A DNA stretch of 64,000 nt, from the NCBI RefSeq assembly GCF_000208405.1, contig NC_015437.1, forward strand, positions 372,001 to 436,000, read 5' to 3'. The notes under the pieces were generated by a model that was not told the origin of the DNA, ran no database searches, and was given only the letters and a program-made list of their open reading frames with translations. Position 1 is the first letter of the stretch; each line of letters starts with the position of its first letter. The stretch is from Selenomonas sputigena ATCC 35185. Lineage in GTDB: Bacteria > Bacillota > Negativicutes > Selenomonadales > Selenomonadaceae. Made by a program: the position numbers and the translations under genes. Shown piece by piece: positions 16,463 to 44,728 of this stretch.

Positions 16463-16477
16463 CGGGTGTAAACTACA

Positions 16478-16510
16478 CGCACAAACGTCCACTTTGTGGA
16501 CGTTTGTGCG
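16478..16510. repeat. Perfect 15-bp hairpin between fliB and nrdJ
   Basis: CGCACAAACGTCCAC (16478-16492) pairs perfectly with 16496-16510 across a TTT loop. No T run follows on either strand, so it is not a classical terminator. It may be a transcript-stabilising 3' hairpin for nrdJ or part of the adjacent repeated element. Confidence 0.7.
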
Positions 16511-16520
16511 CCGCTCTTAA

Positions 16521-16573
16521 TGAAAGTTACCCAATCAGTCTGCGCCCTTCGGGCTTGACTTCTTGGACTTTCA
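16521..16573. repeat. Structured dispersed element, copy 1 (3' of nrdJ)
   Basis: The layout is an outer stem TGAAAGT/ACTTTCA, a 3-nt bulge (TAC), an inner CCAA/TTGG stem, then a core containing TCTGCGCCCTTCGGGCTTG with a GCCC-TTC-GGGC mini-hairpin. The same layout recurs twice at 43269-43374 with different but still paired outer stems. It lies 80 nt past the nrdJ stop. The function is unknown. Confidence 0.65.
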
Positions 16574-16652
16574 TAGTAAAACAGACTTATGAAAATCTCC
16601 ATCGAGGCTGCCTGCAGGATGTGAAGGCAATCTGCAAGCAACATCGTTTGAG

Positions 16653-18902
16653 CTATTCACATTTCGACCAGCCGCAATAGGTGCAGGTCACGCAGTTGCC
16701 TTCGGGGCGCAGGGTGTGGCGCTTGCATTCGGGGCATTCTTTGTTGATCGCCTTGTCGTCGCTCTTGTCCTTGTATTTCGCCGTCTCGTCCTTTTGGCAT
16801 TCGTTGTAGATTTCGGCGAGAGCCGTGCCGATGGCACTGCCGCACGAGAGCGAGATGTCTTTGCGTCCGCTGCGGATCAGGGCTTGGCAGGCGGAGCAGC
16901 GGCTGACGGTCAGCTGCTTGATGATGTCCTTGACGCGCACGCCCGAGCGCAGTGCGAGAGAGGTCAGGCGCGTGATCGTCGCGATGTTCGACTGACAGCC
17001 GCCCGAGGTGTTCGTGAAGAGCTCGAAGACGTCGCCGTCGGAGGTCTTGTTGACCGTGATGTACATCTTGTCGACGCACGACGTATGACGAAGGAGCGTC
17101 ACACCTTCGAGCCGCGCGATGTTGTCGCGGCGGCGTGGACGCACGGTGTCGTAGGCGATTTCCTGCTCGGCGGCTTCCTTGACGCCGAGGATGTTGCCGC
17201 GCTTGCAGCCGTCGCGGAAAACCGTGATGCCCTTGCAGCGCGATTTCCATGCCGCGAGGTAGATGTTCCTGATGTCGGCGGGCGTCGCTGCGTGCTTCAA
17301 GTTCACCGTCGAGGAGATGGAGTTGTCGACGTACTTCTGCATGGCCGCCTGCAGTTCGACGCGGTGCAGGTAGGGCACGTCGTGGCTCTCGATGACCCAC
17401 GGGAAACGCTTCTTGATGTCCTCGTTCGTGAGGTCGTGCGGCAGCTTGTGATAGTCGAGCAGATCGCTGACGGAGTGTGCGTAGACGCGGAAGGAGCCGC
17501 TTCCTTCCTCCATCTTGTGCGTCGTGCGCTCGTAGCTGATCTGATAGAGAGGCTCGCAGCCGCCCGAGAATACGCCCATGAGGAGCGAGATCGTGCCCGT
17601 CGGCGCGATGGAAAGAAGCGTGCCGTTTCTAAGGCCGTACTCTTTGATCTCGGCGTAGACCTCGGGCGCTTCCTCGGCGAGACGTTGGATGAGCGGCGAT
17701 TTCTTCGTCTTTTCCCAGTCGTATTTGCCGAAGGCGCCCTTTTCTTTCGCGAGAGCGGCGGAAGTGCGTGCGGCTTCCGTGAACATCGTGCGCAGCACGC
17801 CTTGGATGAAGTCGCAGCTCTCGCGGCTTCCGTAGGCGAGCTTCATGGCGACGAAGGCGTCGGCGACGCCGAAGAGCCCGAGTCCGACGCTGCGCCAATC
17901 GCGGATGCACTGACGGTTTTCTTCCAAAGGCTGCGTGTCGAAGCCGTAGTCGAGCACTTCGTCGAGCGCACGCACGGCCGTCTGGATGGCGGCGCGGAAC
18001 TCCTCTTCTGCAATATGCGGCGCATCGCCGAACTTGTCCTCGATGAAGGAATAGAGGTTGAGGCTCATGAGGTTGCATGAGTTGTAGGCATTGCCGCCGA
18101 ACTCGCCGCAGGGGTTCGTGACCTCGATCTTGTATTCGTCGTAGCCCGAGAGCAGCGTGTAGTCGTTGAGCCTGTCCTTGAAGAGTGCGCCGGGATCGCC
18201 CCAATCCCACTGCGTCTGACAGTATTCATCGAAGAATTCGGCGGCGCGGATCGTCCGGCGGATCTTTTCGCCCGTCGCCTCGACGTCGAAGGTCAGTTCG
18301 TATTCGGCATCGTCGATGACGGCCTGCATGAAGGCGTCGGAGAAGAGGATTGAGAGGTTCATCGAGGCGAGTTTCTCGTTCTCTTGCTTCATGTGCAGGA
18401 ATTCGTAGATGTCGGGATGCTCCGAGTCGAGCGCGACGAGCATCGCGCCGCGTCTGCCGTTTTGGCTGATGACTTCGCCCGTCGTGTTGAAGATCTTGAG
18501 GAAGGATACAGCGCCCGTCGAGCTGCGCGCGACGTTGTTCACGCGGCTGTCCTTGGGGCGCAGGCCGCTGATGTTCACGCCGATGCCGCCGCCGTAGGAG
18601 AAGATCTTGGCAATCTGCTGGTTGACGGTGAAGATGGACTCGATGTCGTCCGTCGGCGACGGCATGATGTAGCAGTTCGACAGGCTGCTCTTGAACTTGC
18701 CCTTCGCGCCTGCTGCGTAGAGCGTGCGCCCCGCGGGCGAGAGTGCGCCATCTTCAAGGTAAGCGCGCATCTTTTCGCGCACCTCGGGCGAGAAGATGCC
18801 TGCCACGCGCTCGATGAACTCGTGCGGCTCTGTCTCTCCCGCATGATAATATTTTGCCTGCAGGATGCTCCTGCCGATTTCCGTGTCAAACCACTTTTCC
18901 AA
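16653..18902 (-). CDS. nrdJ: Adenosylcobalamin-dependent (class II) ribonucleotide reductase
   Basis: 749 residues. Reduces ribonucleotides to deoxyribonucleotides using a B12-generated thiyl radical, so it works with or without oxygen. Visible landmarks are the N-terminal active-site Cys in SLSNCYIMP, the GGGIGVNIS loop, the NPCGE motif with the radical Cys, APTGTIS, and a C-terminal Cys-rich tail (CPECKR...CVTCTYCGWSKCE) for re-reduction or zinc binding. The start is TTG (18900-18902) with AGGAGG at 18910-18915, 7 nt upstream; a strong promoter lies at 18951-18979. I saw no cobalamin-riboswitch consensus in the ~45-nt leader. It stands alone. The tetrapyrrole operon at 37-42.7 kb can supply precursors for its cofactor. 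Confidence 0.95.
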   Translation of the reverse strand: MEKWFDTEIGRSILQAKYYHAGETEPHEFIERVAGIFSPEVREKMRAYLEDGALSPAGRTLYAAGAKGKFKSSLSNCYIMPSPTDDIESIFTVNQQIAKIFSYGGGIGVNISGLRPKDSRVNNVARSSTGAVSFLKIFNTTGEVISQNGRRGAMLVALDSEHPDIYEFLHMKQENEKLASMNLSILFSDAFMQAVIDDAEYELTFDVEATGEKIRRTIRAAEFFDEYCQTQWDWGDPGALFKDRLNDYTLLSGYDEYKIEVTNPCGEFGGNAYNSCNLMSLNLYSFIEDKFGDAPHIAEEEFRAAIQTAVRALDEVLDYGFDTQPLEENRQCIRDWRSVGLGLFGVADAFVAMKLAYGSRESCDFIQGVLRTMFTEAARTSAALAKEKGAFGKYDWEKTKKSPLIQRLAEEAPEVYAEIKEYGLRNGTLLSIAPTGTISLLMGVFSGGCEPLYQISYERTTHKMEEGSGSFRVYAHSVSDLLDYHKLPHDLTNEDIKKRFPWVIESHDVPYLHRVELQAAMQKYVDNSISSTVNLKHAATPADIRNIYLAAWKSRCKGITVFRDGCKRGNILGVKEAAEQEIAYDTVRPRRRDNIARLEGVTLLRHTSCVDKMYITVNKTSDGDVFELFTNTSGGCQSNIATITRLTSLALRSGVRVKDIIKQLTVSRCSACQALIRSGRKDISLSCGSAIGTALAEIYNECQKDETAKYKDKSDDKAINKECPECKRHTLRPEGNCVTCTYCGWSKCE

Positions 18903-42829: not shown

Positions 42830-43202
42830 AAAAAAGCCCTGCAGGAAAGTTTGTATGTATCTTGCTTGTTCATCGTGGAAACGAGAGAAAAAGTCCTACG
42901 GAGAAACTTCAATCAACTATTATTCATTATAAAAATTTATTGTCTACGCTATGCACACAAAACGTTTGTAATTATATAAAAACTGAATAAGACTTTCTGA
43001 GATTTTTGAAGAATCGTCTTTATGGAATTTCATGTTCATGCTGCCGTGAAAACTTGGGACGATACAAGACTTGCACAGCTATAGCATTGCGTGATTCATG
43101 GCTTTGCTGTGCTCGACACGGAAGGGAAAGTGTTTCCCATGTGTACGATTGGAAAGGCAGCGGCATTGCCATGACAGGTTCAAAGGATAAGGCAACAGAG
43201 CA
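42830..43202. other. Gene-free stretch upstream of the hem operon, possible decayed gene or small RNA
   Basis: About 370 nt without a convincing intact gene. Read from ATG 43021 (plus strand), one frame gives protein-like text (EFHVHAAVKTWDD and, after an in-frame stop, FAVLDTEGKVFPMCTIGKAA), suggesting a decayed gene. A strong terminator follows at 43203-43242, so something may be transcribed through here. I recognise no known RNA family. Confidence 0.35.
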
Positions 43203-43247
43203 AACAACAGCCCGACGGGAAGATTCCCATCGGGCTGTTGTTATTTT
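43203..43247. terminator. Strong hairpin terminator
   Basis: An 18-19-bp stem (43203-43221 with 43224-43242, one mismatch) is followed by TATTTTAT on the plus strand; A-rich sequence on the other side lets it also act on the minus strand downstream of gdhA. Confidence 0.75.
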
Positions 43248-43268
43248 ATAGAAGCCTCAGTGTCGGTC

Positions 43269-43315
43269 AACGTTAGCTGCGCATCTGCGCCCTTTGGCTT
43301 GACCTGCGGGACGTT
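43269..43315. repeat. Structured dispersed element, copy 3 (degenerate)
   Basis: Outer stem AACGT/ACGTT, 3-nt bulge TAG, inner stem CTGC/GCGG, core TCTGCGCCCTTTGGCTTGACC. Core bases match copy 1 while both stems differ but still pair. Confidence 0.5.
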
Positions 43316-43325
43316 TTCGCATACG

Positions 43326-43374
43326 GCCTATTGGCCAATCAGCGCGCCCTTCGGGCTTGCTTCTTGGATAGGTC
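43326..43374. repeat. Structured dispersed element, copy 2 (immediately 3' of gdhA)
   Basis: Outer stem (G)GCCTAT/ATAGG(T)C, 3-nt bulge TGG, inner CCAA/TTGG, then TCAGCGCGCCCTTCGGGCTTG and CTTC. It ends 5 nt from the gdhA stop. See the entry at 16521 for the shared layout. Confidence 0.65.
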
Positions 43375-43378
43375 AGTA

Positions 43379-44728
43379 TTAGACGATGCCCTGTGCGACC
43401 ATCGTGTCTGCGACGTGAAGGAATGCCGTGATGTTGGCGCCGGCGATGAGGTTGCCCTTCATGCCGTACTTCTCCGCGTTCTTCTTGGAATTCTGATAGA
43501 TGTTCTTCATGATGCCCTTGAGGCGATTGTCGACTTCCTCGAACGTCCAGTGCAGGCGCTCGGAGTTCTGGCTCATCTCAAGCGCGGATACGGCGACGCC
43601 GCCGGCGTTTGCAGCTTTCGCAGGGGCGAAGAGGACGCCCTTTTCCAAGAGGTATTCCGTCGCATCGAGCGTCGTCGGCATGTTCGCGCCTTCGCCGACG
43701 GCCATGACGCCGTTCGCCACGAGAGCCTTCACGCCCTCGATGTCAAGTTCGCTCTGCGTCGCGCACGGCAAGGCGATGTCGCACTTGACCGTCCAGACGC
43801 CACGGCATCCCTCGTGGTACTCGGCATTCGGACGCTTTTCGACGTATTCTTTGATGCGGCCGCGGCGCACTTCCTTGATCTCCTTGACGAGCGCGAGGTC
43901 GATGCCCTCAGGGTCGTAGACGTAGCCGTTCGAGTCGGAGCAGGTCACGGGCTTTGCGCCGAATTCGATGGCCTTTTCAATCGCATACGTCGCGACGTTG
44001 CCCGAGCCGGAGACGACGACGGTCTTGCCCTCAAGGCTCTTGCCGTTGTCTTCGAGCATCTCCTTCATGAAGTAGAGGAGTCCGTAGCCCGTGGCTTCCG
44101 TGCGTGCGAGGCTGCCGCCGTAGCCGAGTCCCTTGCCCGTGAGGACAGCGGAATCAAAGGAGTTGACGATGCGCTTGTACTGACCGTAGAGGTAGCCGAT
44201 CTCACGGCCGCCGACGCCAATGTCGCCCGCCGGCGTATCGACCATCGAGCCGATGTGGCGATAGAGCTCCGTCATGAAGCTCTGGCAGAAGCGCATGACC
44301 TCGTTGTCGCTCTTGCCCTTCGGGTCGAAATCCGAGCCGCCCTTGGCGCCGCCGATGGGAAGCCCCGTCAAAGAGTTCTTGAACGTCTGCTCGAAAGCGA
44401 GGAACTTCAAAATGGAGAGCGTCACGCTCGGATGGAAACGCAGGCCGCCCTTGTAGGTGCCGACGGCGCTGTTCGCCTGCACGCGGTAGCCGCGGTTGAC
44501 CTGAACCTCGCCCTTGTCGTTCTCCCAAGGCACGCGGAACATGACGACGCGTTCCGGCTCGACCATGCGCTCAAGGATCTTGTGCTTCTTGTACTCGGGA
44601 TGCTGCTCCAAGACAGGCACGATCGAGGTCAGGACTTCCTTGACCACGTTGTGATATTCCTTCTCCTGCGGATCCTTCTTTTCGATAGAGGCGAGGATGT
44701 CCTCTACATACTGCTGCATTTCCGTCAT
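43379..44728 (-). CDS. gdhA: Glutamate dehydrogenase (NADP type)
   Basis: 449 residues, the length of hexameric NADP-dependent enzymes. Interconverts 2-oxoglutarate plus ammonia and glutamate. VNRGYRVQANSAVGTYKGGL, FHPSVTLSILKFLAFEQTFK, and the catalytic-Lys segment LPIGGAKGGSDFDPKGKSD are present, then VVVSGSGNVATYAIEKA for dinucleotide binding. ATG 44728 has AAAGGGGT about 10 nt upstream. It is a single-gene unit. Glutamate is also the precursor used by the adjacent hem operon. Confidence 0.97.
   Translation of the reverse strand: MTEMQQYVEDILASIEKKDPQEKEYHNVVKEVLTSIVPVLEQHPEYKKHKILERMVEPERVVMFRVPWENDKGEVQVNRGYRVQANSAVGTYKGGLRFHPSVTLSILKFLAFEQTFKNSLTGLPIGGAKGGSDFDPKGKSDNEVMRFCQSFMTELYRHIGSMVDTPAGDIGVGGREIGYLYGQYKRIVNSFDSAVLTGKGLGYGGSLARTEATGYGLLYFMKEMLEDNGKSLEGKTVVVSGSGNVATYAIEKAIEFGAKPVTCSDSNGYVYDPEGIDLALVKEIKEVRRGRIKEYVEKRPNAEYHEGCRGVWTVKCDIALPCATQSELDIEGVKALVANGVMAVGEGANMPTTLDATEYLLEKGVLFAPAKAANAGGVAVSALEMSQNSERLHWTFEEVDNRLKGIMKNIYQNSKKNAEKYGMKGNLIAGANITAFLHVADTMVAQGIV

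Follow-up and report, generated by a model that had tools for sequence, protein, structure and literature searches.

A covarying twin-hairpin repeat in Selenomonas sputigena, probably a REP/MITE-like mobile element that acts as folded DNA

The closest described systems are the REP and BIME repeats of Escherichia coli (GTAG-3 type) and their transposase TnpAREP (RAYT). These repeats are intergenic, number more than 100 copies and form dimers and arrays; each is an imperfect palindrome mismatched in mid-stem (AA/GC), and their families show compensatory stem changes (PMC3733652, PMC8266576). The mid-stem AA/GC bulge is required by TnpAREP (PMC8266576), and PMC3733652 names no REPs from Bacillota. 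CGTC-tagged REPs are palindromic repeats without a dedicated transposase (PMC3733652), while PATE and other non-autonomous IS200-IS605 derivatives have two terminal hairpins, a T-rich TTAC-like target and no clear terminal inverted repeats (PMC7290912). The enterobacterial RU/ERIC-type repeats are mobile intergenic sequences of about 100–130 bp (PMC2759123). The repeat described here shares with each system the traits of structure, copy number, target or size just listed. RAYTs are generally regarded as necessary for REP-like elements, and what we describe is a large, evidently mobile family of REP geometry without an encoded RAYT.

The window analysed is a stretch of 64,000 nucleotides from S. 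sputigena ATCC 35185. An initial annotation had reported a hairpin with a conserved core and covarying stems at three sites, 16521–16573, 43269–43315 and 43326–43374, and the sequences and coordinates are as it gave them, with the copy at 43269–43315 being degenerate. The features are as follows, where R2 is the broader covariance model used for wider scans.

16472–16577, plus strand: complete family I unit of 106 bp, comprising hairpin A, a linker and hairpin B
16478–16510, plus strand: hairpin A, CGCACAAACGTCCAC TTT GTGGACGTTTGTGCG; the palindrome is perfect here
16520–16574, plus strand: hairpin B, the finding originally reported, from its sequence, fold and covariance model
16653–18902, minus strand: nrdJ, adenosylcobalamin-dependent ribonucleotide reductase (Pfam PF02867 and PF12637), a neighbour outside the element
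43264–43320, plus strand: family II hairpin C, a degenerate copy with inner stem CTGC/GCGG and outer stem AACGT/ACGTT, from model R2
43322–43377, plus strand: family II hairpin D, with outer stem GGCCTAT/ATAGGTC and inner stem CCAA/TTGG (R2, 53 bits)
43379–44728, minus strand: gdhA, glutamate dehydrogenase (Pfam PF00208 and PF02812), a neighbour outside the element

Inwards from its outer stem, ATGAAAGT/ACTTTCAT, hairpin B has a one-sided bulge of 3 nt, the stem CCAA/TTGG, a loop of TC x TC, the stem AGTC/GACT, a second loop of TGC x TT and finally GCCC-TTC-GGGC; it forms the same fold on both strands. The core comprises the bulge, CCAA-TC ... TC-TTGG, the TGC x TT loop and a small apical loop, with stems that vary freely; on the other strand it reads CCAA-GA ... 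AA-(apical loop)-GCA ... GA-TTGG. The copies at 16521–16573 and 43326–43374 adopt the fold originally drawn; as RNA (z −4.1 and −3.3) they are matched in stability by none or one of 200 shuffles. For the copy at 43269–43315 the lowest-energy fold differs from the one drawn (z −1.2), and the copy is recognised by profile R2 (28.3 bits, E 3e-6).

Together with a second hairpin, hairpin B makes up a unit of about 103–108 bp, of which it is one half; the unit ends were set using five empty sites and some 58 full copies. The initial annotation had seen hairpins B, C and D but missed hairpin A, so that the element is twice as long as it had appeared. The hairpins at 43269–43315 and 43326–43374, which it had listed as separate copies, are real but are the halves of one C-D dimer (43264–43377) belonging to a second sub-family, with 1 nt between its end and the stop codon of gdhA. 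In family I, hairpin A (CGCACAAACGTCCACTTTGTGGACATTGTGCG) precedes hairpin B, both unit ends read RCTAYR, and units are often in tandem; the unit at 16472–16577 has AA on either flank. In family II the dimer joins hairpins C and D, both B-like, whose outer stems are AACGTC/GACGTT in C and, for example, GAGCCGT/ACGGCTC in D; in a third family hairpin B is joined to a longer AGGACATATGT stem. A strong inverted repeat, CAGCCCGACGGGAAGATTCCCATCGGGCTG, lies beyond the C-D dimer at 43203–43242 of the window; it is probably the gdhA terminator, which would place the dimer in the 3′ UTR of gdhA.

The likeness to REPs extends to the mid-stem mismatch: on the plus strand TGC (81 of about 126 distinct rows) faces TT (111) across the loop, equivalent to AA x GCA on the minus strand. 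The family differs from E. coli REPs in having no RAYT and no GTAG directly 5′ of the hairpin, where the contexts are TTTAC-TATG, TTTAC-CATG, CGTATGCGAA or TTGCTGA. Its hairpin is also longer (50–60 nt) and adds a second CCAA/TTGG plus GA/GA module, a 5′ bulge and direct A-B or C-D units, and it sits in Bacillota. Membership of E. coli REPs in the family was rejected, as an R2 scan of a 45-kb E. coli stretch with 14 REP-like sites matched none of them. By analogy the family may work like REP, yet it falls outside the RAYT-associated REPs. CGTC-tagged REPs differ in core, size and taxa, and here CGTC lies within hairpins A and C rather than forming an unpaired terminal tag. Unlike PATE, the units have no parent IS with these hairpin ends, and a Y1 transposase is missing altogether from many copy-rich genomes; compared with the RU/ERIC-type repeats there is no shared core, and the covarying stems and sub-family modules differ. 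Integron attC sites were dismissed by eye, the ends having no RYYYAAC/GTTRRRY. Rfam comparison, which the initial annotation had proposed, gave no family at gathering score: in the window only a tRNA matches, and around 43200–43450 there is nothing relevant at E≤10. A literature search returned no description of these repeats in Selenomonas or Negativicutes.

The S. sputigena genome (G000) is a single contig of 2,568,361 bases. Within the 64-kb window alone, matches to the core GCGCCCTTYGGGCTTG at 3 mismatches do not exceed chance; with at most two mismatches the core has 89 matches in the whole of G000 vs 5 for the reversed control. The start of hairpin A gives 76 matches in G000 and its control 0. 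A covariance model (R1) built from 19 copies, with E-values that are rough (short calibration), finds 135 copies in G000 and 128 in the sister species (G001), so that the further copies implied by the original proposal do exist. Those in G000 are intergenic and group into 105 arrays.

Covariation supports selection on the hairpin fold. In a model alignment of 150 copies, of which 126 are distinct, 89% of cells pair and 16 of the 18 pairs change on both sides (outer 6/6, middle 7/8, apical 3/4). The distinct copies contain 354 double-change cells, compared with 98.5 ± 12.4 when shuffled, and the covariation score of 0.401 falls to 0.165 on shuffling and to at most 0.155 with the partner slid, which abolishes the signal. 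Because the model alignment leans towards structure, we ran a further check in which copies were anchored on CCAATC...TCTTGG only and the flanks examined for pairing; the mean outer stem was 5.85 bp, vs 3.25 in shuffled flanks (maximum 3.70 in 500). By a stricter count, 76 distinct six-pair outer stems stay complementary, with 398 of 456 pairs being Watson-Crick. Pairing of the stems is therefore preserved through covariation, also in the further copies, and the earlier claim of selection on the fold stands. That it acts “in RNA or as a DNA hairpin” is right as far as it goes, and wobble pairs over the distinct outer stems (G.T 17 vs A.C 11) leave the acting strand undecided. The 76 outer stems around one core amount to a natural mutagenesis experiment on what the mobiliser reads.

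Comparison of G001 with G000 over 795 kb gave five precise units of 101–105 bp in G000 (637639, 1919636, 2429119, 2505527 and 2544937) at which G001 has empty sites with intact flanks, up to 99–100% identical. Two of these five copies are degenerate. The junction overlap is 2 nt (AA) in four cases and 3 nt in one poly-A site; it is always AA/TT, and duplication and non-duplication at the target look alike. In one example, on the minus strand, the empty site reads AACGTTTGCCATC and the filled site AACGTTT-[ACTATG...GTGTAGCTT]-GCCATC. In 58 full units the flanks are RYAA on the left and AAA on the right, equivalent to TTTRY when read from the opposite strand, and the five empty sites do not fix the exact crossover point inside TTTRY. 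Tandem number differs between the two species at 2046803, 316799, 2203626 and 1929277, and at 2046803 a truncated copy stands alone in G001 where G000 has a truncated and a full copy. These comparisons establish the units as dispersed and multi-copy, with precise presence or absence, tandem gain and loss, and an AA/TT junction overlap at a TTTRY-like target. With two genomes compared, these five differences fit precise loss from G001 as well as gain in G000. A Mitsuokella MAG contains at least 14 near-identical copies at different places, which points to recent spread. The repeats account for the places at which these genomes break in assembly or are rearranged.

At 1929277–1929336 of G000 (L022, L063) a unit lies between a CIRCE operator (TTAGCACTC-N9-GAGTGCTAA) and the start of an apparent hrcA, and G001 has two units at this site; an effect on heat-shock control is possible, judging from the position.

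Genome-wide, copies in G000 occur in every gene arrangement, with gene orientation called by ORF length only, and the commonest setting is between convergent gene pairs (24 of the 71 arrays with both neighbours called). Copies have no preferred strand with respect to replication, while their density declines away from the origin (37, 24, 22, 12 and 10 per fifth; p 1.8e-4). The G001 windows behind the orthologous nrdJ and gdhA contain no copy, the genes themselves aligning at about 97%. The initial annotation had placed all copies just downstream of minus-strand genes (nrdJ, gdhA), hinting at a 3′-end element of such genes. That reading is not supported: the copies belong to a dispersed repeat, and the position 3′ of nrdJ or gdhA, with any effect on them, is incidental.

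With model R2, whose E-values are likewise rough, and a threshold of E≤1e-4, 89 of 341 genomes of the class are positive, representing 27 of 95 genera; no more than 16 copies were counted in any one genome. Ten genomes of the phylum sample score outside the class; most of these share the CCAATC...TCTTGG core, and several have a CGCAT-type linker followed by a second hairpin. The distribution is wide in Negativicutes and sparse elsewhere in Bacillota. The hairpin A pattern was found in 74 stretches, all from Selenomonas or Mitsuokella, and viral contigs and phage and plasmid collections gave no match to the twin-hairpin family. At seven S. bovis loci (L318, L336, L345, L356, L361, L362, L366) hairpin A occurs alone, mostly ending at CAGTAAA. 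These copies are best read, from their ends, as having lost hairpin B between AGTAAA direct repeats; alternatively hairpin A moved alone.

We put at roughly 70% the probability that the copy at 16521–16573 is part of a non-autonomous, REP/MITE-like mobile twin-hairpin element that acts as folded DNA. In the mechanism we propose, a protein supplied in trans would read the folded single strand by its shape, cut near YTT and insert the unit at TTTRY. Since the end of a copy itself reads TTTAC, later insertions would often fall next to existing copies and build up tandem arrays. Counting against a mobile element is the absence of a replication-strand bias (28/28 and 25/24), which single-stranded DNA transposition at forks would predict. 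As a more speculative extension, which we regard as doubtful, the twin hairpins would form a Bacillota-wide family moved as folded single strands by a novel type of enzyme, neither Y1 nor reverse transcriptase, with some copies recruited as structures at rRNA ends.

Placement at rRNA ends is also the strongest argument for reading the repeat as a host-useful structured RNA, a transcribed hairpin that protects or processes the 3′ ends of mRNA and rRNA and is retained for that reason. The rRNA operons of S. sputigena carry family II dimers (L031, L130 twice, L146 and L149) that border on rRNA gene ends, 0–2 nt from the 3′ end of 23S, about 9 nt from that of 16S or 3–8 nt from the 5′ end of 5S. 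Such placement recurs in several other genera, and in 12 of 14 cases the dimers have the same orientation relative to transcription. In genus g17, where most genomes have only 1–4 matches, the best-scoring copies are in rRNA operons. Recurrent placement of this kind could reflect a host function, which counts against the mobile reading; equally, the rRNA ends may be a tolerated niche or, being T-rich, a target hot spot. Possible host use is thereby open to testing. The frequency of convergent gene pairs also fits an RNA role, which we nevertheless think unlikely: neither nrdJ nor gdhA is followed by a copy in the sister species, units are precisely gained or lost and change in tandem number, copies occur in all gene arrangements, and the G.U bias is consistent for neither strand. 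Descent from a DDE insertion sequence as a classical MITE, bearing short ACTAYR inverted ends and duplicating a 2-bp AA/TT target, would account for RCTAYR at both ends and for the overlap at every clean empty site, and a true MITE with 15-bp inverted ends occurs in the same genomes. Here, however, the inverted ends are imperfect and only about 6 bp long, compared with a criterion of at least 10 bp plus target duplication; family II has no inverted ends, ACTAYR being shared in family I only, and conservation is strongest in the hairpin core rather than at the termini. With the overlap always AA, a duplication is not proven, and we give this origin a low probability.

It appears very unlikely that this is an ordinary REP/BIME system with a RAYT (group 2 TnpAREP) or the resident IS200 transposase as its mobiliser, even though the family matches such a system in the mid-stem mismatch, in copy number and in its intergenic arrays. 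The GTAG tag is missing, E. coli REPs do not match the model, and none of 151 family genomes has a RAYT (NF047646) over cut-off. Nine copy-rich genomes (G001, G060, G076, G065, G156, G043, G066, G139 and G135), including the sister species and the Mitsuokella MAG, have no match to the Y1 transposase (PF01797) even at E≤1; these absences rest on Pfam/NCBIfam models and partly fragmented assemblies. A Y1, RAYT or IS200 mobiliser was thus discarded as a general explanation. G000 has six IS200-type tnpA genes and G001 has no IS200. Two of the six copies (L033 and L035; 1180936 and 2040773) abut a family I unit precisely at its GTGTAG|TTAT end, an observation that favours the IS200 route; the ends of the G000 IS200 copies are unlike those of the twin-hairpin units, and Y1 loci of relatives contain no copy of the unit. 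Arrays with a 5′-truncated first copy had suggested copying by reverse transcriptase from circular or concatemeric RNA, which was ruled out by the lone truncated copy in G001 at 2046803 and by the absence of RVT_1 from G001. It is therefore unlikely that a resident Y1 transposase or a reverse transcriptase is the mobiliser. No autonomous version, with a gene separating hairpin A from hairpin B, was found in 74 loci of other species, nor any autonomous partner near copies or in viral contigs, phages or plasmids. REP-type geometry without such an enzyme encoded points to another mobiliser of folded DNA.

A TRAM/m5U RNA methyltransferase gene has a family II-like dimer at its 3′ end in two other families of Bacillota (L378 and L388). 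A true MITE, about 160 bp in length, with ends GGAAGCGCTGATAAA / TTTATCAGTGATTCC and a TGAA duplication, is carried by one species and missing from the other at one site (L184 15750–15910 in G001, compared with L056 in G000), and twin-hairpin units are nested inside other copies of this MITE.
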